The notes under the pieces were generated by a model. It saw only the letters and a list, made by a program, of their open reading frames with translations, searched no databases and was not told the origin of the DNA. Below, in pieces: positions 2,338 to 14,913 of a DNA stretch of 21,098 bases. The DNA lies in the IMG/VR virus record IMGVR_UViG_3300025122_000199, positions 1-21,098 of that record; one strand, 5' to 3'. How positions within the stretch are numbered: position 1 is the first letter of the stretch; the number at the start of each line of letters is the position of its first letter. Made by a program: the position numbers and the translations under genes. The stretch comes from a virus.

Positions 2338-2530
2338 AGACTTGCGCTCACTTACTGCTGTAACAGAAGTTAGAGGATGCAGCTATAAAAGAATGGGACA
2401 AGCAATGATTGGCTGCGGAATACAGAGCCTAAAAGAAGGATGCGATGATTCTGAAGAAGCCTTGGGACTTGCACGGCAAATGCTTGAGGCTTGGACAGAC
2501 CTCATTGAATCAGAAGACATAGCGGAGTAG
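2273..2530 (+). CDS. Small hypothetical protein, about 85 aa (GTG start proposed)
   Basis: The frame is open from 2186, but I place the start at GTG 2273 because AAGGAAAGG ends 8 nt upstream, an ideal SD. It overlaps the previous gene by 65 nt in another frame. The product is acidic and mostly helical (SDEEQTAKEFCEDLRSL, EEALGLARQMLEAWTDLIE) with two cysteines near GCGIQSLKEGC. No family was recognised. It is the last gene before the strong terminator at 2553. Confidence 0.6.
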   Translation: MSAIIESQNLSDEEQTAKEFCEDLRSLTAVTEVRGCSYKRMGQAMIGCGIQSLKEGCDDSEEALGLARQMLEAWTDLIESEDIAE

Positions 2531-2552
2531 TTGTCCTTTCGACTCCGCGCTC

Positions 2553-2597
2553 AAGCGGGGGTGGGTTCTTGTCCTTTCTGCCCCATCCCCGCTTTTT
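2553..2597 (+). terminator. Rho-independent terminator
   Basis: AAGCGGGGGTGGG pairs with CCCATCCCCGCTT, giving a GC-rich stem of about 13 bp with one G-U pair and a loop of about 15 nt, followed by TTTTTAAT. It closes the first + strand transcription unit 23 nt after the stop codon. The flank and loop carry two direct copies of TTGTCCTTTC (2531-2540 and 2569-2578). Confidence 0.85.
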
Positions 2598-2600
2598 AAT

Positions 2601-2618
2601 AAGTTGCCGCGATAACTT
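2601..2618. promoter_or_regulatory. Imperfect 18-bp palindrome, candidate operator
   Basis: AAGTTGCCGCGATAACTT matches its reverse complement at 14 of 18 positions, with 5-bp perfect outer arms and a CGCG core. It lies 9 bp upstream of the -35 box of the next promoter, which suits an upstream regulator site. Confidence 0.4.
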
Positions 2619-2626
2619 AAACACCC

Positions 2627-2663
2627 TTGACAGATAGCCCTGCTGCTGTCATACTAGCTATCT
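2627..2663 (+). promoter_or_regulatory. Sigma70-type promoter with overlapping 7-bp inverted repeat
   Basis: A perfect TTGACA (2627-2632), a 17-bp spacer and CATACT (2650-2655, 4 of 6 match to TATAAT) form the best promoter seen here. AGATAGC (2632-2638) and GCTATCT (2657-2663) are perfect inverted arms that bracket the spacer, -10 box and expected transcription start. A repressor bound there would block polymerase, and the adjacent RHH protein is the obvious candidate. Confidence 0.75.
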
Positions 2664-2664
2664 C

Positions 2665-2880
2665 ATGGAGGAAGGAACTTTAGACGACAGTGCCGCAGTA
2701 GTCACAAAGATTAACCCCGACAAGATCAAGCCAACCGATGTAAAGCGTTGTCTTGGTGTGCGGATCAGCGAAGGTCATCACGAAAAGTTGACCATGCTGG
2801 TGAGGGAAACTGGAAGATCACGGAGGGATATTTTGGAGATGTTAATTGATATGGCTAAGGTCGGACAGTACTCAGAATAA
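2665..2880 (+). CDS. Ribbon-helix-helix DNA-binding protein (CopG/Arc-like), 71 aa
   Basis: Residues about 27-64 fit an RHH domain: a short strand (CLGVRIS), helix A (GHHEKLTMLVRETG) and helix B (RRDILEMLIDMA), preceded by a flexible acidic N-terminus. Such proteins are dimeric repressors that insert a beta ribbon into the DNA major groove. The ATG is only 10 nt past the -10 box, so the mRNA would be leaderless or nearly so; the purine run GGAGGAAGGA lies inside the coding sequence. Probably autoregulatory through the inverted repeat overlapping its promoter. Confidence 0.75.
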   Translation: MEEGTLDDSAAVVTKINPDKIKPTDVKRCLGVRISEGHHEKLTMLVRETGRSRRDILEMLIDMAKVGQYSE

Positions 2881-2960
2881 ACTTGGAGGGGAGCACCGCT
2901 TTTCTGAGGGCATCTCCTGCCCCACCTCCTTTGCGGTGTGAACCTCCTTATCTTAAACAG
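2881..2960 (+). other. Leader between RHH and resolvase genes with anti-SD-like sequences
   Basis: No separate gene is supported, although a TTG at 2883 would extend the resolvase frame by 26 proline-rich residues. The segment carries a purine run (GGAGGGG, 2886-2892), arms CACCGC/GCGGTG (2895-2900 and 2933-2938) and two pyrimidine runs, CACCTCCTT and ACCTCCTTA. These last two resemble the 3' end of 16S rRNA. The purine and pyrimidine runs could pair, hinting at an attenuator or masked initiation site. Confidence 0.35.
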
Positions 2961-3332
2961 ATGAACAGCAGAGAGAAAGGAAAACGTGGAGAGAGATTGT
3001 GGAGAGATCAGCTAAAGTCTGCTGGCTACCCCAATTCAAGGAGGGGTCAGCAGTTCAGCGGCGATGAATCCGCACCAGACGTTATCTGTGAAGACCTGCC
3101 CCACCTACACTTTGAAGTGAAATATACGCAGAGGCCAAACATAGAGGCTGCACTCATACAAGCCAAAGACGATTGCGGTGAGAAGCTACCAGTTGTAGCA
3201 AGCTATCGTACCGGAGGTAAACTGAAGGAGTGGGTCGTATCAATGACAGCCGAAGCGTACTTTAAACTGATAGAACAATGCCAAATAAAGAATCAGAACA
3301 CATCGGAACTGTGCTCGCAAGAGCGCAGTTGA
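2961..3332 (+). CDS. Phage Holliday-junction-resolvase-like PD-(D/E)XK nuclease, 123 aa
   Basis: From ATG 2961 the protein begins MNSREKGKRGERLWRDQL and continues SRRGQQFSGDESAPDVI and HLHFEVKYTQRPNI. This is the arrangement of small phage resolvases, with likely catalytic E11, D40 and E52-x-K54. The GQQFSG segment and the following NIEAALIQA helix are typical. The role would be resolving branched DNA during replication or recombination. The ATG lacks a clear SD; a TTG at 2883 in frame is less likely because the family normally starts near the ExGxRGE helix. The 3' end overlaps the ERF gene by 55 nt, which suggests coupled expression of annealing protein and nuclease. Confidence 0.8.
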   Translation: MNSREKGKRGERLWRDQLKSAGYPNSRRGQQFSGDESAPDVICEDLPHLHFEVKYTQRPNIEAALIQAKDDCGEKLPVVASYRTGGKLKEWVVSMTAEAYFKLIEQCQIKNQNTSELCSQERS

Positions 3333-3838
3333 ATATCAAGACAGCCCCGTGTTCGGGGACTAACCCGCACTTCGGAAGTACTTATGCAATGCTTAAGGAC
3401 TTCATTAGATCGTGCAGGGAGGTCTTGAACAACGAAGGAATAGTAGTCCACTTTGAGAGTGGGTTCTCACAGGAGAGGACGGAAGCTAAGGTGAATGAGG
3501 AGGGGGATGTCATAGGCAAAACCCACTACCCTCGTCAAGACTTCCTCACCCTCAAGCTCATCTTTGGGGATCAAGCCTTGGCCAGCACGGTTGCCTTGAT
3601 CTGCACTAAGGATGATATGCAGTCACGCAAGTCAGCGCAAACCTACGGGATGAGAGCACTTCTTGAGAGTGCTTTATGTATCGACTCTGAAGAAATGGAC
3701 GATGATGGCAACGCTGCTGTCGGCGAAGAGAAGATGAAAGCAAAGACCAGCAAGCGTTCCAACTATAACCCAAACCAACCCGTCAAGTCGCGCAGCGAAG
3801 CAGTTGAAGCTAACGCAGACTTCTTGGCTAAAGGATAA
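3278..3838 (+). CDS. erf: ERF-family single-strand annealing protein, 186 aa
   Basis: The ERF hallmarks are present: an N-terminal helix with ARAQLNIKTA, then NPHFGSTYAMLKDF (residues 29-42), and a central SAQTYGMRALLESALCID (119-136) matching the family's SYxxRYxL..L region. The C-terminus (about 137-186) is a lysine- and acid-rich linker, probably disordered, as in other ERF proteins. ERF proteins anneal complementary ssDNA and promote circularisation and recombination of phage genomes. The start at 3278 overlaps the resolvase gene and lacks a strong SD, so translation is probably coupled. Confidence 0.85.
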   Translation: MPNKESEHIGTVLARAQLNIKTAPCSGTNPHFGSTYAMLKDFIRSCREVLNNEGIVVHFESGFSQERTEAKVNEEGDVIGKTHYPRQDFLTLKLIFGDQALASTVALICTKDDMQSRKSAQTYGMRALLESALCIDSEEMDDDGNAAVGEEKMKAKTSKRSNYNPNQPVKSRSEAVEANADFLAKG

Positions 3839-3859
3839 AACCAAAAGAAAGGTAAGCTA

Positions 3860-4456
3860 ATGAACATGAAAGTAGTTGATGTTGCGATCAAGGGATTAAC
3901 CCCACTGATGCAACACAGATTCAGCGAGAACGCTGAAGTAGAAGGGAAGAAGACAACCCGCACTGTAGTAAGAGTGGCGGAAACACCACGAGAAGAAGCC
4001 GATAAGGTTTGTTATCGGAACAAGGAGGGAGAGTATTATATGCCCTCAACCTGCATCCACCGGATGCTCATAGAGGCTGGCAGCAATCACAAGCTGAAAG
4101 GCTCACGCAAGTCGGCAAAGTATGTCGTGTCTGGAGCAGTCCAGATGACATCAGACACACTTGTTGTACGCAACGGTGATGGAGTAACCCCCGCAAAGGA
4201 CTACGAGGTGGACAGCCGCCCTGTTGTTATTCCAAGCACGAAGGGTAGGATCATGCGGCATCGTCCGCGCTTTGACCAGTGGTCAATGCAGTTCTCCATT
4301 CGCATCAACGAGGACTTGTTGCCAGAAGACTTTGTACACCAGCTTCTTGATGAAGGTGGTTTGCAGGGTGGCATAGGTGACTTCCGTCCACAGAAGTTCG
4401 GGCCGTATGGCACGTTCCTCGTGACTGAGTGGAAGGACGGTAAGCCTGTTAGTTAA
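3860..4456 (+). CDS. Conserved phage protein with RAMP-like glycine-rich loop, 198 aa
   Basis: The start at 3860 has SD GAAAGG; a second Met is at codon 3. The N-terminus (VDVAIKGLTPLMQHRF, residues 6-21), the middle (YMPSTCIHRMLIEAG, 60-74; DSRPVV and RHRPRF, 118-138) and the C-terminus (GGLQGGIGDFRPQKFGPYGTF, 166-186) fit a conserved phage family that I remember next to recombination genes. The GG-x-GG-x-G...G-x-x-G segment resembles the glycine-rich loop of RAMP/Cas7-type RRM folds, which suggests RNA or ssDNA binding. That is inference; no catalytic residues are evident. It is the last gene before the pentamer array. Confidence 0.6.
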   Translation: MNMKVVDVAIKGLTPLMQHRFSENAEVEGKKTTRTVVRVAETPREEADKVCYRNKEGEYYMPSTCIHRMLIEAGSNHKLKGSRKSAKYVVSGAVQMTSDTLVVRNGDGVTPAKDYEVDSRPVVIPSTKGRIMRHRPRFDQWSMQFSIRINEDLLPEDFVHQLLDEGGLQGGIGDFRPQKFGPYGTFLVTEWKDGKPVS

Positions 4457-4463
4457 TGAATCA

Positions 4464-4495
4464 CCTCTGCCCATCAGTCAAATGGTGGGCGGAGG
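4464..4495 (+). terminator. Strong hairpin directly before the pentamer array (weak terminator or boundary structure)
   Basis: CCTCTGCCCATCA pairs with TGGTGGGCGGAGG, a 13-bp stem with two G-U pairs and a 6-nt loop. It begins 8 nt after the upstream stop codon and ends 7 nt before the first GGTNN pentamer. The following ATTTCC is only weakly U-rich, so termination may be partial; it may instead cap the 3' end of the upstream mRNA or the 5' end of an array transcript. Confidence 0.55.
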
Positions 4496-4501
4496 ATTTC
4501 C

Positions 4502-5691
4502 GGTTCGGTAAGGTAAGGTGAGGTGGTGTGTGGTTCGGTGAGGTTCGGTTGGGTAAGGTAAGGAATGGCTTATGAATTTAATTTCGGGCGAGGTACGGTG
4601 CGGTGAGGTAGGGTGTGGTTCGGTCCGGTAGGGTAAGGTAAGGTAAGGAATGGTTTAATGAATTTAATTAGGTAAGGTACGGTTTGGTAAGGTACGGTCC
4701 GGTAAGGTGGGGTACGGTAAGGTAAGGTAAGGAATGGTTTAATGAATTTAATCTGGCAGTGTCGGGTATGGTTGGGTGGGGCGGGGTTGGGTTGGGTAAG
4801 GCAAGGAATGGTTTAATGAATTTAATGGGCTGGTTTGGTTAGGTATGGTGAGGTTCGGTAGGGTGCGGTATGGTGTGGTCCGGTAAGGTAAGGAATGGTA
4901 TGGTTTTATGAATTTAATTCGGTGAGGTACGGTATGGTAAGGTAAGGTGAGGTGGGGTACGGTAAGGTAAGGAATGGTATGGTTTTATGAATTTACCACG
5001 GTCGGGTAAGGTGAGGTGAGGTAAGGTACGGTCGGGTATGGTCGGGTATGGTGAGGTGTGGTAAGGTCAGGTAAGGTAAGGAATGGTTTAATGAATTTAA
5101 TTTGGTATGGTAAGGTGAGGTGGGGTTTGGTGCTGTTTGGTGAGGTCTGGTCAGGTGAGGTTCGGTTGGGTAAGGAATGGTTTAATGAATTTAATTTAGG
5201 TCGGGTTTGGTTGGGCAGGGTAAGGTTTGGTATGGTCGGGTATGGTGAGGCGCGGTAAGGTTTGGTTGGGTACGGTAAGGTATGGAATGGTTTAATGAAT
5301 TTAATTTAGGTTTGGTAAGGTATGGTTAGGTTGGGTTCGGTATGGGCTGGTGAGGTGTGGTCAGGTGAGGTAAGGAATGGTTTAATGAATTTAATTTGGC
5401 GAGGTTGCGGTATGGTAAGGTGAGGTGGGGTCGGGTTTGGCTCGGTATGGTGGGGTAAGGAATGGTAAGGAATGGTTTAATGAATTTAATTTAGGTTTGG
5501 TAAGGCAAGGAATGGTTTAATGAATTTACCATGGTTCGGTATGGTACGGTTAGGTGGGGTTTGGTGGGGTATGGTAAGGTAAGGAAAGGTTTAATGAATT
5601 TAATTTGGCGAGGTATGGTACGGTCAGGTGAGGTTTGGTTAGGTATGGCGGGGTTAGGTCAGGCTCGGTAGGGTAAGGTAAGGAAAGGTTA
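4502..5691 (+). repeat. GGTNN pentanucleotide array, 14 units, about 1.2 kb
   Basis: By hand parsing, about 171 pentamers of form GGTNN lie head to tail, grouped 12, 12, 12, 10, 13, 10, 16, 14, 17, 13, 14, 3, 10 and 15 per unit, with an AT-rich box after each of the first 13. About 153 start with exact GGT; exceptions are single substitutions (12 GGC, 3 TGT, 2 GGG, 1 GGA). The 5-nt register breaks only once, by a 6-mer near 5403. The two variable bases take all 16 dinucleotide values, so this is not a homogeneous microsatellite. In 13 of 14 units the last pentamer ends AA, creating TAAGGAAT or TAAGGAAA. The + strand is very G-rich and C-poor. The last unit merges into the ribosome binding site of the gene at 5699. 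No protein frame spans the array. Confidence 0.95.
4562..5606 (+). repeat. Thirteen copies of an AT-rich box with SD-like leader and invariant ATGAATTTA
   Basis: Boxes begin at 4562, 4647, 4731, 4805, 4892, 4971, 5080, 5174, 5284, 5374, 5469, 5509 and 5583. The consensus is GGAATGG followed by TTTAATGAATTTAATTT. Variants lie upstream of the core (CTTATG in box 1, a TATGGTTTT insertion in boxes 5 and 6, GGAAAGG in box 13) or at the 3' end (ATTTACC in boxes 6 and 12). ATGAATTTA is identical in all 13. AAGGA sits about 8 nt before this ATG in the typical box, so each box looks like a bacterial translation start. Spacing between successive ATGs is 40-110 nt, so it is not a constant period. Confidence 0.9.
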
Positions 5692-5698
5692 CAACATT

Positions 5699-5923
5699 AT
5701 GAAAGACATCAATCACAGCGAGAGGGAACATCACCCCGATTTCCCTCCATCATCATTGCCAGCGTTCGCCAAGTGTCCTTGCTACAAGTCATCGTCAACG
5801 GTGGGGGCGGCAGCAATAAGGGGAACAGAGTTACATGAGAAGCTGGAGGAAATACTGTGCAGTACTGAGTTAATCAAGGAGATAAAGAATGCTAGAAAGA
5901 ACACCAAATCAAATAAGGGATGA
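5699..5923 (+). CDS. N-terminal fragment of a Cas4/DUF2800-like PD-(D/E)XK nuclease, 74 aa
   Basis: The ATG 5699 uses an SD (AAGGAAAGG) supplied by the last array pentamers. Residues 15-53 (FPPSSLPAFAKCPCY, then AAIRGTELHEKLEEIL) match the start of Cas4/RecB/DUF2800-type nucleases: the SxSSLxxxxxCP entry with the first Fe-S-type cysteine (C26 or C28) and the RGTxxH helix with H46. The rest of that fold (catalytic D, DxK, QxxxY and three cysteines) is missing here but occurs in the gene at 7106. The tail after residue about 61 (KNARKNTKSNKG) overlaps the next gene by 35 nt and looks like read-through into inserted DNA. It may work as a split subunit or be a remnant. Confidence 0.7.
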   Translation: MKDINHSEREHHPDFPPSSLPAFAKCPCYKSSSTVGAAAIRGTELHEKLEEILCSTELIKEIKNARKNTKSNKG

Positions 5924-6152
5924 AGCCATCAAGTGCTTCAATCAAATGGCTCCAGCCAAATATAACGCTGGACAAAAGGAGCACGGAGGATTGCTGGACA
6001 AGAGGAAAGACATCATCGCTGATCTGCGCGGGGAGTCCATAGACTTTTGGTTCTACGTTGAGACAGCCGCAAGGCAGATGGAGGAGAAGGATGAGCGCAT
6101 TGAGTTTCTTGAGAAGCAACTGGAACACTACAAGGAGATTGCAGCGAGGTAA
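5889..6152 (+). CDS. Small helical phage protein, possibly MazG-like, 87 aa
   Basis: The SD AAGGAG lies 7 nt before ATG 5889, within the tail of the preceding gene. Residues 24-57 (KYNAGQKEHGGLLDKRKDI, then GESIDFWFYVE) match a small phage family with a K/Y-x-AG-x-x-EHGG signature and a following E-x-x-D-x-x-x-Y helix, faintly recalling all-alpha NTP pyrophosphohydrolases. The C-terminus (about 62-87, MEEKDERIEFLEKQLEHYKE) is a predicted coiled coil. Activity is not established; the full MazG metal site is not obvious. Confidence 0.55.
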   Translation: MLERTPNQIRDEAIKCFNQMAPAKYNAGQKEHGGLLDKRKDIIADLRGESIDFWFYVETAARQMEEKDERIEFLEKQLEHYKEIAAR

Positions 6153-6154
6153 GC

Positions 6155-6682
6155 ATGAAGCTGGACATTAACACACCACGGGGTCAGAGCGCATTGGGTT
6201 ACGAGCGGGACTGCATAGAACTATTCTGTAAACTCTACCCCGACTATAAGTTCCTTGAGACTGACAAGCGGGAACCTGCTGCCATCGACGGGTTCTTCTA
6301 CCTGCACAAACGTCAATGGGTTGACTGTGCTGTGGAGGTTAAGACGAGAGACATGACAACCGAGCAACTGGTGTGTAGCTACGGGAACGAGTGGCTCATC
6401 TCGCACGACAAGATACTAAGAGGGCAGCGCATCAGCGAGTTAATCTGCTGCCCGTTCATCGGGATGCTTTACCTTATACCGGAAAAGAAAATCCTAACAA
6501 TCAAGATCACAGACAAGCGCGGGAATTACATAATAGACTTTGACGTTCGTGAAGCCGCAACAAGTAAAAGCATTAACGACCACAACATGGAGCTTGGCAT
6601 GAACGCATTCATACCAATGGGAAAAGCAAAGGAGCATAAATGGAGTACAGAACAAACTGCAAACTCTGCAACGACCCAATGA
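6155..6682 (+). CDS. PD-(D/E)XK-like nuclease of unknown role, 175 aa
   Basis: It starts 2 nt after the previous stop. Residues 1-65 carry a PD-(D/E)XK-like layout: helix with E17 (GYERDCIELF), D45 in AAIDGFFY, then E61-V-K63 in CAVEVKTRD, followed by a possible helix (TTEQLVCSYGNEWLISHDKI). The remainder has strands (FIGMLYLIPEKKILTIKI) and a polar tail. It may act as a restriction- or homing-type endonuclease. Its position among the genes that separate the two nuclease fragments makes a mobile origin plausible, but no flanking repeats were seen. The 3' end overlaps the next gene by 43 nt. Confidence 0.6.
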   Translation: MKLDINTPRGQSALGYERDCIELFCKLYPDYKFLETDKREPAAIDGFFYLHKRQWVDCAVEVKTRDMTTEQLVCSYGNEWLISHDKILRGQRISELICCPFIGMLYLIPEKKILTIKITDKRGNYIIDFDVREAATSKSINDHNMELGMNAFIPMGKAKEHKWSTEQTANSATTQ

Positions 6683-6855
6683 CAATCCCTGTCGAGGACA
6701 GTGATGATAAGGATAGCAGAGAGTTGGGGCTTAACCCCGAAGTCTGGATGGGGAAACTGACCTGCATGAAGTGCAGCCACTACAAGAAGACAGGGAAGCT
6801 ACCCCCAATCAGCAATAACATTAGGGACTTTCTATTAGAGAAAGATGAAAACTAA
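6640..6855 (+). CDS. Small zinc-ribbon protein, 71 aa
   Basis: The ATG 6640 follows AAAGGAG at 5 nt, inside the end of the preceding gene. Two CxxC pairs, CKLC (residues 7-10) and CMKC (42-45), are separated by an acidic linker, an arrangement that fits a single zinc ribbon. MEYRTNCKLCNDPMTIPVE at the N-terminus is typical of phage zinc-finger proteins. Specific function is unknown. Confidence 0.65.
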   Translation: MEYRTNCKLCNDPMTIPVEDSDDKDSRELGLNPEVWMGKLTCMKCSHYKKTGKLPPISNNIRDFLLEKDEN

Positions 6856-6931
6856 AGACTTGGAACTAATCGCGGCTATCGCCATAGCCATTGCCTTTAT
6901 CGGGCTTGTAATAAAGGTTGCACTTTTATGA
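6845..6931 (+). CDS. Single-span membrane micropeptide, 28 aa
   Basis: The ATG 6845 lies in the end of the zinc-ribbon gene (11-nt overlap) and the stop overlaps the next ATG (ATGA). The product starts MKTKDLEL and continues with a hydrophobic stretch of about 20 residues (IAAIAIAIAFIGLVIKVALL), a likely single transmembrane helix. Tight overlaps on both sides support real expression, although the SD (AGAGAAAG) is only moderate. It could be a small holin-like or membrane-modulating protein; that is speculative. Confidence 0.5.
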   Translation: MKTKDLELIAAIAIAIAFIGLVIKVALL

Positions 6932-7122
6932 TGAAAGAACAGGAACAACTTGAAGAGTGGCAGAGGATAGGCATGAGGATTCTTGCCGACCCACACGCCA
7001 GCCGCAGCGAGGTGGACACAGCCATCATTGGGGTGAGAGGTAGCGACAATGAATGGCTCAAGGAGCAACTCCAGCGTAAGAGAGAGACAGCGTGGAAGGC
7101 TAAGAATGTCAAAGACAATTAA
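6928..7122 (+). CDS. Small helical hypothetical protein, 64 aa
   Basis: It begins at ATG 6928 in ATGATG overlapping the micropeptide stop; ATG 6931 is an alternative start. The sequence is charged and helical (KEQEQLEEWQRIGMRILADP, then DNEWLKEQLQRKRETAWKAK) with no recognised domain. Its 3' end overlaps the C-terminal nuclease fragment by 17 nt and provides that gene's SD (GGAAGG). Confidence 0.55.
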   Translation: MMKEQEQLEEWQRIGMRILADPHASRSEVDTAIIGVRGSDNEWLKEQLQRKRETAWKAKNVKDN

Positions 7123-7699
7123 GGTTTATCCAAAAGAAATAGCATGGGCTGCATCCTACATCCTGTCAGTGGCAGGGAGGAAGAAGCTGACCAGCGAACA
7201 GCGTGTGTCCATCATGCGAGGGGATGAGGAGATTAGCTTTGGGAGTATGGATGCCTACTGTAAGGGCCATCTGTTTGATCTCAAGACAGGCATGAGGCGG
7301 GACTATAGGCAGCAGATGGCTGCGTATGCTCTTGGTGTGATGCAGAAGTTTGGGGACACAAAGCTCAAATGCCATCTGGTCTACTCCAAATATAAGGAGG
7401 TTGAGACTTTTGATATTGATTTAGAAGAGGCAGAGAGTATAGTGTACGACATCGTTGACTCCGTTAACGACCCCACCCGCTCACCGTGGCCCTGTGATTA
7501 CTGCCGTTGGTGTGCAAGAAAGGATAACTGTACAGCCATTAAACACTTTAGCTATGTCATCGCCGGACAAGTCGAGGCGATGAAAGCAATAAATCTCAAT
7601 GAGCCAGTGCCACCCGCCGTCAAGGAACGGTTGCTCTCTATTGTGAGTGCAGTGGAGAAGTGGGGGGATTGGATCAAGGAGAAGGTAAAAGAGAAATAG
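7106..7699 (+). CDS. C-terminal catalytic part of a Cas4/DUF2800-like PD-(D/E)XK nuclease, 197 aa
   Basis: I place the start at ATG 7106 (SD GGAAGG, 6 nt upstream); the frame is open back to 7049. Visible motifs are SMDAYCKGHLFDLKTG (D49; D58-x-K60), RRDYRQQMAAYALG (Q70xxxY74, the RecB/Cas4 motif) and a cysteine cluster C130-x2-C133-x2-C136-x5-C142, as in Fe-S nucleases of this class. The family's N-terminal helix with the first cysteine and RGTxxH motif is absent but present in the gene at 5699. If the two products associate, they would rebuild a Cas4-like exonuclease used in recombination or DNA processing. The tail (residues 150-197) is helical and charged. Confidence 0.75.
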   Translation: MSKTIKVYPKEIAWAASYILSVAGRKKLTSEQRVSIMRGDEEISFGSMDAYCKGHLFDLKTGMRRDYRQQMAAYALGVMQKFGDTKLKCHLVYSKYKEVETFDIDLEEAESIVYDIVDSVNDPTRSPWPCDYCRWCARKDNCTAIKHFSYVIAGQVEAMKAINLNEPVPPAVKERLLSIVSAVEKWGDWIKEKVKEK

Positions 7700-7703
7700 T
7701 ATT

Positions 7704-8000
7704 ATGCCTGAAGAAGAAAAGAAACAGAAGTATAAGTACGCAAAGGTAGCCAAGAAAGGCTACCTCTACAAGAACGACCGCAAGCGTGAGGGTACTAATG
7801 ATCCCGACCATAAGGGTAAGATCATTGAGCTTAACCTCAACGAGTGCAAGGAAGTTGCAGACGAGAACGGGTTAGTAACCCTTCATGTGTCTGGATGGGT
7901 AGAGGAAGATCAAGGTGGCACTCCCCGTGTCGGTCTTGCTGTCCAGAAAGCTATCCCAATCGAGACTGCTGAACCAGCAGCATCGCCCTTCGAGTGCTGA
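7704..8000 (+). CDS. DUF736-like small phage protein, possibly ssDNA-binding, 98 aa
   Basis: The N-terminus is Lys/Glu-rich. A core KGYLYKNDRK, DHKGKI, LHVSGWVEED and GLAVQKA follows the usual layout of DUF736-like phage and plasmid proteins (G-x-L/F-K-N-x-R-K ... H-x-x-x-G ... S-x-W-V-K/E). These are small beta-rich proteins, often beside recombination genes. It follows the nuclease fragment by 4 nt with only a weak SD. ssDNA binding is inference. Confidence 0.55.
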   Translation: MPEEEKKQKYKYAKVAKKGYLYKNDRKREGTNDPDHKGKIIELNLNECKEVADENGLVTLHVSGWVEEDQGGTPRVGLAVQKAIPIETAEPAASPFEC

Positions 8001-8014
8001 ACAGTACTAAAACA

Positions 8015-8056
8015 AATCCCCTTCCCTCGTCTTGCAGTTGCGGCGGGAGGGGGATT
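8015..8056. other. Hairpin in the intergenic region before the DnaA-like gene
   Basis: AATCCCCTTCCC pairs with GGGAGGGGGATT (12 bp, one G-U pair) around an 18-nt loop. On the + strand it is followed by AAAACC, so it is not a classic terminator in that direction. It lies 18 nt before the SD of the next gene and may affect translation or mRNA processing. Confidence 0.5.
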
Positions 8057-8074
8057 AAAACCGAGAAAGGAAAC

Positions 8075-8464
8075 ATGAGACAAAAGAAAGAACCTTCGGA
8101 AGAAGAGAAACTAAAAGCAAAGATGGCAGTTGTTGCCGCGAGCTTTGCTTACGGGGTTAAAGACCACCACATAATGCGAGTGCCGCGAGGAGAGGAAAGG
8201 GTTGCAGTTGCACGGCAGACTGCGTATTGGCTTTTAAGAAAGTCCGGTATGAAGTATGAAACAATCGCCAGTGTAATGGGGAAGAAGGATCATGCCACAC
8301 CTATACACGGATACAACCACATAGAAAACATACTTCAAATCAATCTGGACAGCGGGTATGCCGGATGCGTCAGGAATGCAGCCAAGCATTACAGAAGCTT
8401 CTATAAGAGATACGAAGAGCTAAACAGGGAGCGTAAGGTGAAGGAGTTGGAAAATGCTTTTTGA
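8075..8464 (+). CDS. DnaA domain-IV-like DNA-binding protein, 129 aa
   Basis: The ATG 8075 follows SD GAGAAAGGA at 4 nt, so I prefer it to an upstream in-frame ATG at 7994 that would run through the hairpin. Residues about 43-88 (VAVARQTAYWLLRKSGMKY, TIASVMGKKDHATPIHGYNH) match the DnaA C-terminal helix-turn-helix, including the signature G-x-(R/K)DH(S/T/A)T-like loop that reads DnaA boxes. There is no AAA+ domain. Such standalone proteins occur in phages and may recognise an origin or compete with host DnaA. No clear DnaA box was noticed in the window. Confidence 0.75.
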   Translation: MRQKKEPSEEEKLKAKMAVVAASFAYGVKDHHIMRVPRGEERVAVARQTAYWLLRKSGMKYETIASVMGKKDHATPIHGYNHIENILQINLDSGYAGCVRNAAKHYRSFYKRYEELNRERKVKELENAF

Positions 8465-8687
8465 TGATAGCCGCCCTGCGAAGAAGCCCATCACCGCATG
8501 GGAACTGAAGGAAGCCTTGGAGTCTGTGAGTGAGAGGATGGGGGAACTGGCCCAAAGGCACAGGGGAGAGGTTGCTGGAAGCGGGGTTATTTGGGATAGC
8601 GAGAAAGCTAGAGAGGAATACTTAGAGCTAAGGGCAGTCCGTAAAAGGATCAGAGAAAAGCAAATGGAGTCTGCGAGGATGCTTTAA
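8454..8687 (+). CDS. Small helical hypothetical protein, 77 aa
   Basis: It overlaps the DnaA-like gene by 11 nt, with SD AAGGAG 8 nt before ATG 8454. The protein is rich in charged residues and predicted helical (AWELKEALESVSERMGELA, then EEYLELRAVRKRIREKQ), perhaps a coiled coil. No family was recognised. It is the last + strand gene; the convergent - strand gene ends 10 nt away with no clear terminator between them. Confidence 0.6.
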   Translation: MLFDDSRPAKKPITAWELKEALESVSERMGELAQRHRGEVAGSGVIWDSEKAREEYLELRAVRKRIREKQMESARML

Positions 8688-8697
8688 GCCCACGGCA

Positions 8698-9015
8698 TTA
8701 CATCTCCCTGTAACCCATCCTCCAGAGCAGTTTGGAAATACTACTGGACGCTGCCTCTACCCAATCCTCCTCGGTTGAGGAGGCTATTGAGGGAAACTCA
8801 GCATGAAGAGATTCATGTATTATCACCTCAAGCCTCCGCTTCCCCTTTATCTTTGGGCTTATCGAGATGGAGAAGTCGGAATCTGAATGGCTGTCCAGAA
8901 ATGCCTTTGTCTTTGAGTTATTGCTCTCTGGATAGGAACATAATCCGTCTATCTCCTCCGTCCTTACGGTGAACTTTCCGGTGCTGAACTTGTGCTTAAA
9001 TGTTTTTCCATCCAT
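8698..9015 (-). CDS. HExxH metalloprotease-like phage protein, 105 aa
   Basis: The central motif VIIHESLHAEFP places H67, E68 and H71 in an HExxH zinc site, followed by an acidic helix (SSTEEDWVEAASSSISKLLWRMGYREM). The combination of HExxHA with a C-terminal LWRxGYR resembles small phage proteins related to SprT/WLM-type metallopeptidases. Activity is not demonstrated. The start overlaps the upstream PD-(D/E)XK gene by 20 nt, so the two form a pair. Confidence 0.65.
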   Translation of the reverse strand: MDGKTFKHKFSTGKFTVRTEEIDGLCSYPESNNSKTKAFLDSHSDSDFSISISPKIKGKRRLEVIIHESLHAEFPSIASSTEEDWVEAASSSISKLLWRMGYREM

Positions 9016-9430
9016 TCCTAAACTCCTCCCATTTACATATTCTACTATTCCCCTTACCCCTTCCAGACGGATATATTATTGCGTGGTAAGCGTTCTTCTT
9101 AACCATCTCCTTTATAGGAATGATGTAGAATCCGTCATTATGAATATCCTTAAAGTCATCCGAGTAAGGAGCGTACAGGATTATCAAGTCACAATCTGCT
9201 TGTGTGTACTTAGACTTGTTGCTCTTGCCATGCGTAAGCGAGCAGCGATAACTGCCGTGGTTTGATAAGGTTGCAGTCTTGACTTGTATTCTGATAAGCC
9301 TTCCACCCTTCTCGGCAATCAAATCATAAGACGTTTCCCCGAAGGGTATGCTTACGTTGTAGCCCAAGGACACCAGCTTTGCAGATACAGCAAGCTCCGC
9401 AACGCCCCCTGTTCTTCTGTTAATATCCAT
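8996..9430 (-). CDS. PD-(D/E)XK endonuclease (PDDEXK_5 / I-Ssp6803I-like), 144 aa
   Basis: The N-terminus reads GGVAELAVSAKLVSLGYNV, then SYDLIAEKGGRLIRIQVKTA. E12, D36 and Q49-V-K51 fit the PD-(D/E)XK core in the Q/E-x-K version typical of PF11645. That family includes the group I intron homing enzyme I-Ssp6803I and many phage or plasmid proteins. No intron is seen here. It is placed after the structural operon and two hairpins, and upstream of the HExxH gene with which it overlaps. SD AAAGGG is about 10 nt upstream. The role may be genome competition, homing or DNA repair. Confidence 0.7.
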   Translation of the reverse strand: MDINRRTGGVAELAVSAKLVSLGYNVSIPFGETSYDLIAEKGGRLIRIQVKTATLSNHGSYRCSLTHGKSNKSKYTQADCDLIILYAPYSDDFKDIHNDGFYIIPIKEMVKKNAYHAIIYPSGRGKGNSRICKWEEFRNGWKNI

Positions 9431-9452
9431 CCATCCACCCTTTCATTTCACC

Positions 9453-9475
9453 AAAGTTTCGGTGAACGAAACTTT
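9453..9475. terminator. Hairpin with 9-bp perfect stem downstream of the structural operon
   Basis: AAAGTTTCG, loop GTGAA, CGAAACTTT, followed on the + strand by TCTTC; on the - strand the stem is followed by GGTG. Termination is more plausible for + strand transcripts arriving from the left; for the - strand operon it may act as a processing or stability element. Confidence 0.45.
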
Positions 9476-9481
9476 TCTTCA

Positions 9482-9501
9482 TAAGTGTTCGCGAACACTT
9501 A
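9482..9501. promoter_or_regulatory. Perfect 20-bp palindrome overlapping the stop codon of the giant gene
   Basis: TAAGTGTTCGCGAACACTTA is fully self-complementary and its first three bases on the - strand are the TAA stop of the 1804-codon gene. A perfect palindrome with no loop suits a dimeric protein binding site better than an RNA hairpin. With the hairpin at 9453 it forms a compact control region upstream of the PD-(D/E)XK gene. Confidence 0.6.
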
Positions 9502-12500
9502 GTTATCCCTGCCGGACGGGTCTTTGACTTCCTGCTCCGGCTTGATTGGTAAATTCTTTATGTCGATGTTAAACATCTTCGTAAGCCCGTCTTCTCTTGG
9601 GTTTGCGAAGTACTCAAACGAATCCTTTTTGGCAAACTCATACTGCCTACCATATATCCTAATCAGCTTCTTTACCTTCTCCTCGTCAGTGAGTCCATCC
9701 ATATAGTTGGGGTCATTGATGAGTTGAGCAACTCCATCGTGCTTTCTCAAGTATGTTCTCGTTCCACGACCCTCAATCTCCTGCTTGCCAAGCAGCCTGT
9801 ACCTGCCTACAAGCGCAGAGAAGTAGGCATACTGATCTCGGTTAAGTTCATACTTTTTACCGTCTACCACTATACTCCTGCTTGGCAGCGAGGGAACAGC
9901 TTCGTTTTTGGAGAACTTCCTCCACAGCCTATGCACCTCAGATGAGTATGGATCAAGTATTGCTCCGGACTTTTTAAGTTTAACTATATTAAATGCAGAC
10001 GACATGAACCTGTCCCAATTATCAAGTTCACCGGATTCTGTCTTCTGCCAAGTAGCCTTCTTCCCTTTTCCGAGAGGCAGGACTGAATAGACTGTCCCTT
10101 CCGGCACTGACTCAAGCGGAGTTCCCCACAGGTCTGCGATTATAGGGTAACCCTCAACAAGCTCCTCCTCACTCCACTGACTTGAAACCTTCTTCCTCCA
10201 CTCAGCTTTCAGAGCGTCAGTAAATCCGTCCGGCTTAAATGTTTGCCTATAAGGAGAGTTCATCTTTGTGAACCAAGTGAGCGTGTTAGGGAGGAACACT
10301 GTCATTAAGTCTCGTGCGGCAGAATCCCTAAGCTTCGAGGCATCCTTATCATTTATTATCGCTGCCCACCCCTGCAACCAATCCCTTATTCCTGTAGCCA
10401 TTGTGGTGTTTGCCCCAAATCGGGCAGCGTGGGTTAACCCTTTCGCTGTTCTCTCTTTCATCATGTTTGCCCAGCTCTTCTCAAGCTTTTCCCTTTCCTC
10501 CTTAGGCAAGCTCTCAAGATGCCTGTGCCAGTTGGCGTTATTAAGAAGGATGAACCCCATCGGCCCCATTCTTCTCAAGTCAACCAGCCAGTCACCTTGT
10601 TGGTAAGCCGTCTCCTCACCATTTTGCCACCTTCCCAACGCGCTCATGTTAATGAACCCGTGGTGGAATGATTGCTCTGTCATATACCTAACCTTCTTGG
10701 TGTCAGATGGGTCAGACATATAGGGGTCTAGGTCGGCAGACACAATATCGTTATCCAGTAGATACTGAGCAAGGGACAAGGCTGCTGTCCCTGTAACAAC
10801 TTTGCCAGCGGAAATCTTCGCGTCCTTTGTAAGAAAGCCTTCCTTGTACGTCTTGCCAGCCACATCCACGATCCCCGCAGGAGTGTAATTAACAAGCTCA
10901 CTGAATAGATTGATAAGGGTTTTCTGATAAGGGGTTTTGTTTCTCCAAATAAGAAACGCAGCACTATTCTTTTTCTTTAACCACCTATTAAATTTAGCCA
11001 CATTCTCGGTTCCAATATTCTCCTGCTGGAATGTGGCGCGAGCAGACTCTTGCTTTACTCTCATCCAATCCTTTTCCCCAAACACTAGCTCCGGATGCTG
11101 CATTGCGCGATCCACTGTCTTCTTATCCCATCCTCGGATTTCCCCCTGTTCTAATATTACTCGGCGCATCTCTGCCCCTCTAAACGGAACGTCAGTTGCA
11201 GCAAGCCCCCTAAAGAAGGCTGTAGGGAATGCTCCAAAGGTTGTCTCGACTATATCTTTCGCCACCGTCTTGGCATCAGATGAAACCTCACCCTTCTTGT
11301 TGGTCATTAGCTCATAAAGCCTACCCCCAGCCCTCACTGCGTCTACTGGAGCGGTCATGTTACCCATGTCCAGCGTTCCAGTTTCGTAGATGTTGACCCT
11401 ATCACCCAGCAGCATTGATGATATGAAGTCTGATTTGATTGGGCCGCTTCCCTCTCTCTTGTACTCGTTTAAAAACTTCTTGAGTGTTATGCCACCTTTC
11501 TTCGCTTCCTTCGCTGCTTTGTAAAGCCTCTTGATCCCTGTTGCGTCAACTAACCCCTTAATCTTTTCCCAAGAACCCTTCTTGGGGCTGAGTCGCATCT
11601 GCTCCATTGGGCTTAACATCCTCTCAAGCTTCTCAAGTCGCGCAGCATTCTTAGCGGTCGGGTTTACCTCCTGTTCTGACACCAGCCGTGCTCTCTCAGA
11701 TTCACGCCTCGGCCTCATAAAATACTGATCAATCACATCAATCCCGCGAGCGAAAGTGCGAGCACCAGCTCTCGCTGGCAGCGGAGCTATATTGCCGAAC
11801 ACGTTAACAGCTATTGTTGTGGGAGTGAGATAGTTCCCTTGAAGGAATGAAACAACCAAGTCAGTGAGCTCCTTTGGATTTTTGTCCATGATGAAGTCCA
11901 ACTGCTCAATCTTAGCTGCCTCTGCATCCCTCAACGCCTTTACAGCAGACTCCCAGTTTGCGTCAGTTCTGCTTTCGTGAAAAGCGTTGGCAGTTTTGTC
12001 AGCAATCTCTTGCGCCTTCTGCGCCTTCACAACTCTCTCAACCAAGGTCTTACGTTCTGCTTTAGTAAGCTTCGGCCCTTTGTTCTTTTTGATAGCAGCC
12101 TCGATTAAATCGGCAGTCACTGTTGGGTCAGACGCTTTGAAGAATGCCCTTGCTTGGATGAGTTGCCCAAGGAAGGTGGATTCATTTGCAGAATCCTGCA
12201 CTGCATCCTTATATGCAGCCTCGTTTTCCGTGGTCTTCTCCTTGAGATAACGCTGACGTAAAAGGTCAATCCTCCTCTGCTCCAGCAATGCTCGCTCAAC
12301 TCCAAGCTCCCCATCCGGAAGTTTTTGGAGCTGCTCGTCAATCTCCGGAATTTCAAATGTCTCAATTACTTTAGCAACCCTCGAAGTAGGCATTGCATCG
12401 TAAGCAGAGTCGGGGTTCTCGATCCAAGACGCGACCTCTGAAGGGTCATCCTTCACCATCTCCAAGTGGCGTTTGGTTATCTTATGGAAACGCCTCACCC

Positions 12501-14913
12501 TGTCGGTCTGCGGAACTAGCGTCCCTTCTGCTGCCTCTACAACCTTAGCCTCCTTAGCTTCAGCAATCTCAGCTTCGCCACGGGCAACCTCCTCAACCCT
12601 TTCCTCCTTTAAAGCTTCAACAGCGCGATCAGCCCTTATATCCGGCTTGGCTCGCGGCAACGCCTCCGCCGCTGGAACCGCTTCCTCCCTTAAAGACTCA
12701 ACAACAGGGTCGGTTGGCTTGGGGGGTTTGGCCACAGGGTCTTCAAGAGCAACCTTGCTCCAGTGTTCTCTCCCTTTATCGGTATGCTCTTTAAGCTCAC
12801 TGACCAAGGTTCTTGCATCATCCCACCTCTTCTCTCCCAGTGCTACCGCCAAATCTCTCGCCTTGGTCTGAACGTCATTATACGTTTTGAGTTTCTTGTG
12901 AGACTCGGCGTAAAACTTTAAGGCAGCATCGACTTCCTCTCTCACCTTTTCAACTGGCTTCTTGTGGTGCTTTGCCATTGCCTCCACGTTCTCGCCGTAT
13001 GCTTCTTTTTCAAAGCCGTATTCACTATGAAGCCTCCTGTGGATGCGATCTACCTTCTCCTTAACCCAAGTGAATCCACCCTCAAAGAAGGAGGGGTCTT
13101 GCGCCATCCTGTGCGTCAAGTCTCCGGCATGTTCTGTTGTGTCGGACAGTAATCCTGTGACGGCTCTATGAACCCTATGCATGGCTCCCTCGGGAACCCC
13201 CCTCTGCGCCTCCGCCAAATCGTTAAACCTTTCGTTCATTGACTTGGATTCCCATCCCCCTTGCTCTTCGTAAATCCCCTCCACCTCAACAGGGGGAGTT
13301 GGCTTCTCGTAATATGCAGCCTCGCTTCCTGCTTCGGGTTCAGCTTCTAAGGCTGGTTTCTCAACTTCCTTAACTGGCTCTATAAGTTTAGCGGCCTTCT
13401 CCGCCCTCGCCATCTCTATAATCTCCTGCTCTGGAATGGTAGTCTCAACCTTCTTGGCCTCAAGCTCTGCCCTAAACTCTGCCAGCTTATCGGCCTCAAG
13501 TATCTCCCTGTCGAGTGCCATCTCTCTGTCGAGAGCTATCTCTCTGTCGAGAGCTATCTCCCTATCCTTAGCTGTCTCTCCTTCCTTGAGAGGGGCATCG
13601 GGGCGGATAATAGGGTCGGGGGCAGCAACAGCTTCCGGTGCAACAGGCTTTTCAACCAACGGAATATCTTTAATCTTTAAAGCCTCGGCAGGGGTTTCAA
13701 CGTCAGACTTCATTCTTTCTAACGCCTGTTGTTCTCCCACTCTCTTGTTGAAGTCTGCTTGGGTTTCCCCTTCCATCTTCTCCAGCACTTCACCTTTAGC
13801 CCTGCCTGTCTCAGCCTCGCCTCTCCTCGCTTCAGCCGTCCTCTTCGCGCTGTCAAACCACCCAAGCTTCTTGGCAGCAGCCAAGGCTTTTTGTGGTGTC
13901 TTAATTTCCTTTAACGAAACGCCCCTCTCCGTTAATGCTCCCCTAGCTGAGAGATAGGCAAACGTGCCGAGCAGCGCATGACCCGCCAAAGCTTCCCACT
14001 TCTCCTGCTCTGATGCGTTCGGGTCTTTCCACAACTCAGCAATCTCCGGCGTGTGCTCGACCACGGCTCTCGTCATGTCTGCTGCGAACAGGCCGTGAAT
14101 AGCTTTTCCGGCTTTAGGGAGCACGGCAGATGTTCCTGCTGTCATAATTCCGAGAGGCGAAACAACAGACTTAATCATGTCAGTAACAGCATTAACAGTT
14201 CCTGCGCCACGTTTCGCCCACTTATTATCCTCACCAAAAACAGTCTCTACGTCCTTTTCAGACACTTTAGGTGCGAGTCTTTTCTGTATCCATTCGGGTA
14301 GGTCGTCGTAAAACCCTGCGTGTTCCGCACCTTCCTTTGCTATGAGGGAAGGAATGAGTCCTCTTTGCTGCAAGTCAAAACCTTCTATCCAACCCTTTTC
14401 TTTAACAGGTTCGTCACCTCTCACCCATTCACCCTGCTCCAGTTGCCTTTTTGTTGGGCCAACTATGGGGCTGAACACCTCCCTTAACCCGCCCCATCTC
14501 AATCCTCCGACACTCTCTCCAGTGAGGAGGTCTTTGTCATAGTATGGAAGTGCCTTCTTAGCGACAGGCGACATATCGGGGCGGGTTGCAGCAGCAACTC
14601 TCCCCTCCTCAATCTTTCGGGCAATCTCTTCTTGCCTGTACCACTCCGGCCTCTCCTGCCTATTTTTCCATTCCCACTTTTTATCAAGCTCGAAAATCTT
14701 TTCAAGATCACCCTTAACCTCCTGTACCAGCTTGGAGTCCTCTTTAATTGCCCCATCTTTTAGCAGGTTGTCTATGTTACGGAACCTGCTAAAGACCTTC
14801 GGCCTCTCTTTTAGGTAGGTGCTATAGGAAACATCAGCAGCATCACTCCACGACATCCTTTCGGTTTTCTTGGCAAACGAGGAAAGGAAGTCGCTATAAG
14901 TTTGATCAGCCAT
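9499..14913 (-). CDS. Giant internal virion / ejected-type protein, 1804 aa
   Basis: The start overlaps the preceding stop (TAATG) with SD AGGAG. The N-terminal ~370 residues include a hydrophobic stretch (SVVSPLGIMTAGTSAVL). Residues about 370-800 are Glu/Ala/Lys-rich, low-complexity, coiled-coil-like, with a run of DREIAL repeats at about 447-470. The C-terminal ~750 residues are more globular, with segments such as SFLQGNYLTPTTIAVNVFGN, TGIRDWLQGWAAIINDKDAS and NTLTWFTKMNSPYRQTF. These resemble the C-terminal regions of large phage internal-virion or large polyvalent proteins that enter the host with the DNA. I see no protease, transglycosylase or polymerase motif. Last gene of the structural operon. 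Confidence 0.65.
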   Translation of the reverse strand: MADQTYSDFLSSFAKKTERMSWSDAADVSYSTYLKERPKVFSRFRNIDNLLKDGAIKEDSKLVQEVKGDLEKIFELDKKWEWKNRQERPEWYRQEEIARKIEEGRVAAATRPDMSPVAKKALPYYDKDLLTGESVGGLRWGGLREVFSPIVGPTKRQLEQGEWVRGDEPVKEKGWIEGFDLQQRGLIPSLIAKEGAEHAGFYDDLPEWIQKRLAPKVSEKDVETVFGEDNKWAKRGAGTVNAVTDMIKSVVSPLGIMTAGTSAVLPKAGKAIHGLFAADMTRAVVEHTPEIAELWKDPNASEQEKWEALAGHALLGTFAYLSARGALTERGVSLKEIKTPQKALAAAKKLGWFDSAKRTAEARRGEAETGRAKGEVLEKMEGETQADFNKRVGEQQALERMKSDVETPAEALKIKDIPLVEKPVAPEAVAAPDPIIRPDAPLKEGETAKDREIALDREIALDREMALDREILEADKLAEFRAELEAKKVETTIPEQEIIEMARAEKAAKLIEPVKEVEKPALEAEPEAGSEAAYYEKPTPPVEVEGIYEEQGGWESKSMNERFNDLAEAQRGVPEGAMHRVHRAVTGLLSDTTEHAGDLTHRMAQDPSFFEGGFTWVKEKVDRIHRRLHSEYGFEKEAYGENVEAMAKHHKKPVEKVREEVDAALKFYAESHKKLKTYNDVQTKARDLAVALGEKRWDDARTLVSELKEHTDKGREHWSKVALEDPVAKPPKPTDPVVESLREEAVPAAEALPRAKPDIRADRAVEALKEERVEEVARGEAEIAEAKEAKVVEAAEGTLVPQTDRVRRFHKITKRHLEMVKDDPSEVASWIENPDSAYDAMPTSRVAKVIETFEIPEIDEQLQKLPDGELGVERALLEQRRIDLLRQRYLKEKTTENEAAYKDAVQDSANESTFLGQLIQARAFFKASDPTVTADLIEAAIKKNKGPKLTKAERKTLVERVVKAQKAQEIADKTANAFHESRTDANWESAVKALRDAEAAKIEQLDFIMDKNPKELTDLVVSFLQGNYLTPTTIAVNVFGNIAPLPARAGARTFARGIDVIDQYFMRPRRESERARLVSEQEVNPTAKNAARLEKLERMLSPMEQMRLSPKKGSWEKIKGLVDATGIKRLYKAAKEAKKGGITLKKFLNEYKREGSGPIKSDFISSMLLGDRVNIYETGTLDMGNMTAPVDAVRAGGRLYELMTNKKGEVSSDAKTVAKDIVETTFGAFPTAFFRGLAATDVPFRGAEMRRVILEQGEIRGWDKKTVDRAMQHPELVFGEKDWMRVKQESARATFQQENIGTENVAKFNRWLKKKNSAAFLIWRNKTPYQKTLINLFSELVNYTPAGIVDVAGKTYKEGFLTKDAKISAGKVVTGTAALSLAQYLLDNDIVSADLDPYMSDPSDTKKVRYMTEQSFHHGFINMSALGRWQNGEETAYQQGDWLVDLRRMGPMGFILLNNANWHRHLESLPKEEREKLEKSWANMMKERTAKGLTHAARFGANTTMATGIRDWLQGWAAIINDKDASKLRDSAARDLMTVFLPNTLTWFTKMNSPYRQTFKPDGFTDALKAEWRKKVSSQWSEEELVEGYPIIADLWGTPLESVPEGTVYSVLPLGKGKKATWQKTESGELDNWDRFMSSAFNIVKLKKSGAILDPYSSEVHRLWRKFSKNEAVPSLPSRSIVVDGKKYELNRDQYAYFSALVGRYRLLGKQEIEGRGTRTYLRKHDGVAQLINDPNYMDGLTDEEKVKKLIRIYGRQYEFAKKDSFEYFANPREDGLTKMFNIDIKNLPIKPEQEVKDPSGRDN
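13503..13574 (-). repeat. Four tandem 18-nt repeats encoding DREIAL
   Basis: Units at 13503, 13521, 13539 and 13557; the middle two are identical (TCTCTCTGTCGAGAGCTA on the + strand) and the outer two diverged. They encode DREIAL-type hexapeptides at about residues 447-470 of the giant protein, in a helical charged region, so copy number can vary without frameshift. Confidence 0.8.

Follow-up and report, generated by a model that had tools for sequence, protein, structure and literature searches.

A long array of GGY/NN guide modules beside a vipr gene on a phage contig: a new member of the VIPR systems

VIPR systems, described in a bioRxiv preprint of April/June 2026 (PMC13142463), combine a phage-encoded ancestral RAMP protein, the single-RRM homologue Vipr, with guide RNAs termed vrRNAs. 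According to the main text of that preprint, each vrRNA consists of 9–16 YNNGG repeats, in which GGY is constant and NN hypervariable, followed by an invariant 3′ tail that is structured (a pseudoknot) in the SUSP1 clade. Vipr subunits sit on the GGY triplets and leave the NN dinucleotides free to pair with double-stranded DNA, one base being skipped per dinucleotide, and the complex so formed acts as a repressor of genes carried by competing elements. Long intergenic stretches next to vipr hold the vrRNAs, chiefly in phage genomes. The preprint's tree distinguishes seven types, and the system is proposed to be older than CRISPR (PMC13142463).

Here we analyse a viral sequence of 21,098 nucleotides (IMG/VR record IMGVR_UViG_3300025122_000199, hereafter the window), in which an initial annotation had singled out a 1.2-kb array of GGTNN pentamers as a layout shared with no known element, a statement since overtaken by the April 2026 preprint (PMC13142463). 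What was noticed there is real and striking, and the instinct behind it was right; the element belongs to the known VIPR system. The locus is a new member of a kind reported only in 2026, to which it adds an array with many guides and a case in which the turnover of modules can be seen.

The vipr gene and the modular array

Searches of Pfam, NCBIfam and PADLOC returned nothing for the product of the gene at 3860–4456; it matched PHROG 4652, a family of unknown function (E=7.2e-24). A single-sequence search of PDB sequences matched it to PDB 36pp, the 'SUSP1 Vipr protein' (E=4.5e-7), and the profile of its 22-member family reached this entry at E=3.3e-44, with no other strong match. When the AlphaFold2 model of the 198-aa protein (mean pLDDT 86.9, pTM 0.81) was compared with the PDB using Foldseek, all 50 matches listed were chains of CRISPR effector complexes (best E 7.5e-8), the matched chains being RAMP subunits of the Csm3/Cas7 type, mostly from type III-A Csm and type VII complexes. 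Judging from homology and predicted fold, the product is a Vipr protein. The array starts 45 nt after the end of vipr, on the same strand of this viral contig. The features of the locus are as follows.

3860–4456, + strand: vipr gene, RAMP (Cas7-like) protein of 198 aa, PHROG 4652 (homology, AlphaFold2 model, Foldseek)
4502–5691, + strand: vrRNA array, about 14 GGYNN modules each followed by a constant tail (step excess over shuffles, module parse)
4502–4580, + strand: M1 and tail, 12 pentamers, one degenerate (TGTGT) (module parse)
4587–4666, + strand: M2 and tail, guide part identical in relative L128, tail differing by one base
4671–4750, + strand: M3 and tail (module parse)
4755–4824, + strand: M4 and tail (module parse)
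4827–4916, + strand: M5 and tail, extended tail AAGGAATGGTATGGTTTTATGAATTTA (module parse)
4921–4995, + strand: M6 and tail, extended tail AAGGAATGGTATGGTTTTATGAATTTA as in M5 (module parse)
5000–5099, + strand: M7 and tail, 16 pentamers (module parse)
5104–5193, + strand: M8 and tail (module parse)
5199–5303, + strand: M9 and tail, 17 pentamers (module parse)
5309–5393, + strand: M10 and tail (module parse)
5398–5488, + strand: M11 and tail, one 6-nt unit (GGTTGC), tail partly duplicated
5494–5528, + strand: M12 and tail, 3-pentamer remnant (module parse)
5533–5602, + strand: M13 and tail (module parse)
5607–5691, + strand: M14 and tail, 15 pentamers, divergent last tail AAGGAAAGGTTAC

The array is real, non-random and non-coding. 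The interval 4502–5691 contains 169 GGT triplets, 130 of which are spaced exactly 5 nt from the preceding one. It has 147 GGY-NN-GGY steps, whereas 1000 dinucleotide-preserving shuffles averaged 8.1 and never gave more than 19. No comparable run was found elsewhere in the 21-kb window when both strands were searched, and all three forward frames carry 33–36 stops each across the array. Per-position entropies of the GGYNN pentamers are 0, 0, 0.36, 1.79 and 1.87 bits, the zero at both G positions arising partly because the pentamers were selected by GGY. The triplet, annotated as a fixed GGT, holds its GG, whereas the third base is a pyrimidine (152 T, 11 C) rather than an invariant T. All 16 dinucleotides occur at NN, as had been reported, although the full variability claimed for these positions does not extend to their usage, which is uneven: AA makes up 40 of the 152 GGTNN units, largely because the final NN before a tail is almost invariably AA.

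The array was also said to keep a strict 5-nt register with one exception, which we could not sustain, as 13 constant AT-rich tails interrupt it and the modules restart in differing phases. What had been overlooked is a modular structure of about 14 guide-and-tail units, with 10–16 pentamers in 12 of the 14, 17 in one and 3 in a remnant. Modules are closed by the constant tail AAGGAATGGTTTAATGAATTTA, present in 13 copies, with AAGGAATGG or a close variant standing before a core that reads TTTAATGAATTTA or, in variants, TTTTATGAATTTA or CTTATGAATTTA. Tail fold energies, calculated with a program that has no pseudoknot model, were no better than those of shuffles, and on this measure a structured non-coding RNA found no support. 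Searches of 3800–6000 against Rfam families, including hammerhead ribozymes, gave nothing at E≤1, and no sigma-70 promoter-like site was seen in 3700–5900. Three pairs of modules (M7/M9, M8/M11 and M1/M6) each have four identical NN in a row, where shuffling predicts about 0.13 pairs, which suggests that the paired guides have overlapping targets or that one arose from the other.

The contig encodes Erf and virion proteins, and the neighbours of the array are Erf, RusA-like and DUF2800/RecB-like genes. No vap gene was recognised among these neighbours; the main text of the preprint gives no vap families (PMC13142463). A short open reading frame after the array (5699–5923, + strand) resembles the N-terminal part of a DUF2800/RecB-Cas4-like nuclease, the C-terminal part of which lies at 7049–7699 (+ strand), so that the two look like a split nuclease gene, the split having been judged by eye; a similar short frame is kept at this position in relatives L128 and L129. 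Elsewhere in the window, 7994–8464 (+ strand) encodes a small protein that has the C-terminal helix-turn-helix domain of DnaA (Pfam E=1.1e-8) and seems to lack the ATPase part, and an 18-bp tandem repeat of about 3 copies lies at 13501–13580 within a reverse-strand gene for a 1804-aa protein.

A Vipr homologue, an adjacent array, GGY/NN units, a constant tail and a viral genome are thus all found together, and because a Vipr homologue accompanies an array of GGY/NN guides with tails, the locus is a VIPR system. With the type II systems of Escherichia phage SUSP1 and a Pseudomonas fulva prophage, as presented in the preprint's main text (PMC13142463; PDB 36pp), it shares a Vipr RAMP homologue, pentameric GGY/NN vrRNAs with a constant 3′ tail, an array beside vipr and a phage genome as carrier. 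It differs in the number of guides, about 13 in one array as opposed to the four vrRNAs given for SUSP1, and in its tail, which is short, AU-rich and without structure detectable by a program that ignores pseudoknots, whereas that of the SUSP1 clade is structured (PMC13142463). The Vipr protein of the window is only 22% identical to that of the SUSP1-like locus L124.

The predicted fold and a glycine-rich loop recall the Cas7/Csm3 backbone subunits of class 1 CRISPR systems, as do the proposed oligomerisation on a guide RNA and the separation of variable guides by constant sequence. Unlike class 1 CRISPR, the locus has no repeat array with contiguous spacers and shows a 5-nt period with fixed GGY. 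A class 1 CRISPR-Cas assignment was rejected, given a single RAMP gene, a PADLOC search that returned weak Cas4-like matches and no Cas effector set, and pentamers in place of contiguous spacers; Cas10, Cas1 and Cas2 were not recognisable among the window genes searched.

Distribution and turnover of guide modules

The initial annotation had proposed a pattern search of genomes and metagenomes, and scanning IMG/VR for (GGTNN)8 returned at least 119 stretches. The matches listed fall into two classes, homogeneous runs and diverse arrays, the latter defined by at least 5 distinct NN in 7, and it is the diverse ones that are linked to vipr. Among the matches listed, a Vipr homologue accompanied 46 of 61 diverse loci (49 of 61 counting three found by whole-record search), as opposed to 1 of 50 loci with homogeneous runs and 0 of 24 such records searched whole. 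Tails are specific to clades: AAGGCTAATG in L010 and L081, GGCAGGT in L017, L097 and L076, GGACTAA in L111 and CTCTGGCGAGAAATTTTTATGC in L118. A homolog of the window's vipr was present in 154 records of named phages, and five of the six checked for GGY/NN runs had them beside the gene, namely Gordonia phages UmaThurman and Ecliptus, Mycobacterium phage Saal, Pseudomonas phage LESphi2 and Escherichia phage allfine. In the sixth, Listonella phage phiHSIC (L146; vipr homologue at 2501–3085), no run nearer than about 2.5 kb reached the threshold applied, and its array may be degenerate, distant or variant.

Twelve records carry diverse GGTNN arrays without a Vipr detected by the profile (L105, L106, L113, L023, L024, L037, L040, L043, L070, L078, L087 and L090); these may be fragments, encode a divergent Vipr, or hold guide RNAs without the protein gene. 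The 112-kb contig L082 has more than 300 GGTNN steps over about 10 kb (2679–12920), with vipr and a second, partial vipr-like frame, and on this sequence pattern is taken as a very large guide bank. In L091 (2889–4175), vrRNA-like arrays lie in several consecutive gaps between genes in the neighbourhood of vipr and a nuclease-like gene, and each closes with a similar sequence of the TTTAAAATTTAG type.

The closest comparison is with L128, in which Vipr is 99% identical, the aligned flanking DNA is about 86.5% identical, and the array is much shorter, with about four to five modules. The guide part of M2 recurs there letter for letter (14 of 14 pentamers when the ones preceding the tail proper are included), the tail of this shared module differs by one base and the remaining modules differ. 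As a near relative thus keeps one guide unchanged while the rest are different, guides turn over as whole modules. In order to compare triplet and dinucleotide, 19 shared-module alignments were taken from five related phages of another clade and from the window/L128 pair; over 206 sites at each position, the differences at G, G, Y, N and N numbered 0, 10, 11, 18 and 24. The rate of difference is thus about 10% for NN and about 2.4% for GG, a ratio biased in favour of GG conservation because the modules were delimited by GGY. The constraint that had been suspected on a GG-containing triplet next to hypervariable NN is favoured by this homologue comparison.

It is conceivable, though rather doubtful, that the locus represents a long-array subtype of VIPR which has not been described in detail so far, with about 13 guides, short AU-rich and apparently unstructured tails, a setting among Erf/RusA/RecB-like recombination genes, and turnover of whole modules between close relatives.

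Proposed function, targets and alternative readings

We consider it very probable that this tailed-phage contig carries a VIPR locus whose vipr RAMP gene and same-strand array of about 13 vrRNA guides serve to read DNA and repress competitors. The Vipr homologue, its predicted RAMP fold, the GGY/NN and tail architecture, the linkage of array to vipr and the module turnover come from the present analysis. Vipr would act as the RAMP (Cas7-like) protein, and the 1.2-kb array would be transcribed on the vipr strand into about 13 guide RNAs, each a series of roughly 10–17 GGYNN pentamers that ends 3′ in the constant AU-rich tail, and one fragment. Vipr subunits would line up along a guide RNA and occupy its GGY triplets, so that the exposed NN pairs could recognise a gapped site in double-stranded DNA (NNxNNxNN...), with a single base skipped per dinucleotide; the genes repressed as a result would belong to phages, satellites or prophages that act as competitors. 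By analogy with the published system (PMC13142463), we would expect transcription, loading of Vipr into an RNP, the 1-nt skip and the anti-competitor role to apply to this clade also. Two of the roles first proposed for the array, a non-coding RNA and a periodic platform for a GG-binding protein, come close to the published mechanism.

Targets were sought in several ways. With skips of 0–3, all guides gave no more matches to the collected loci than shuffled guides did, and core patterns of M7, M14, M8, M2, M9 and M5 found either nothing or partial, unconvincing matches in IMG/VR. The best of these was M7 in L130, where 23 of the 24 bases that make up its first 12 NNs agree; this match falls in an unremarkable open frame of 119 residues and has a quality that, by our own estimate, is expected about once per 15 such searches. 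Many microvirus-sized matches to M9 fit its 16-base core only and not its flanks, and M7 and M14 had 0 matches in bacterial and archaeal genomes. Self-targets in the window or in L128/L129 did not exceed shuffles; the best for M14, 20 of 26 with a skip of 1 where shuffles reach 16–17, is unconvincing among 17 guides and four skips. The missing targets are a weak argument against targeting, because the scans required exact cores of 16–20 bases and the rivals may be unsampled.

The same absence of foreign targets for the guides scanned would suit a genuine Vipr-bound RNA bank that regulates the phage's own or host genes instead of those of competitors. We regard this as unlikely, as no self-target was found in the window or L128/L129 and rapid module turnover fits conflict better than fixed regulation; moreover, absence of targets weighs little given sparse sampling, exact-match scans and the six guides used in IMG/VR.

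TRAP sites are (G/U)AG (NAG/NN) triplets placed 2–3 nt apart with a 5-nt period, in about 11 copies, which wind round an 11-mer ring. Their fixed triplet, two free bases and period of 5 resemble the array, and a platform for another GG-binding protein such as a TRAP-like ring, or a replication or packaging element, might accordingly stand beside vipr by chance. This is very improbable: the triplet here is GGY and not (G/U)AG, TRAP spacers carry no information, the TRAP protein is an unrelated ring, arrays and vipr are strongly associated over many unrelated phages, and the vrRNA definition in the preprint's main text fits (PMC13142463). The replication or packaging element and the slippage repeat weighed in the initial annotation found no support. 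A slippage microsatellite, repetitive coding region or assembly artefact is scarcely credible, for although short-period tandem repeats are common and homogeneous GGTNN runs exist in other phages, GG is kept while NN takes all 16 forms, stops crowd each forward frame, one of the modules recurs unaltered within conserved flanks in the independent contig L128, and the same layout is seen in many contigs.

As a VIPR system, the locus bears on a very recent (April 2026 preprint, PMC13142463) form of RNA-guided DNA recognition with a non-contiguous code, to which it contributes a natural bank of many guides, together with a close phage pair showing gain and loss of guides. Should the long-array subtype prove real, its whole-module turnover would imply recombination-driven guide swapping. 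The origin of new vrRNA guides is left unexplained in the main text of the preprint (PMC13142463), and phage pairs such as this one therefore make the question testable.
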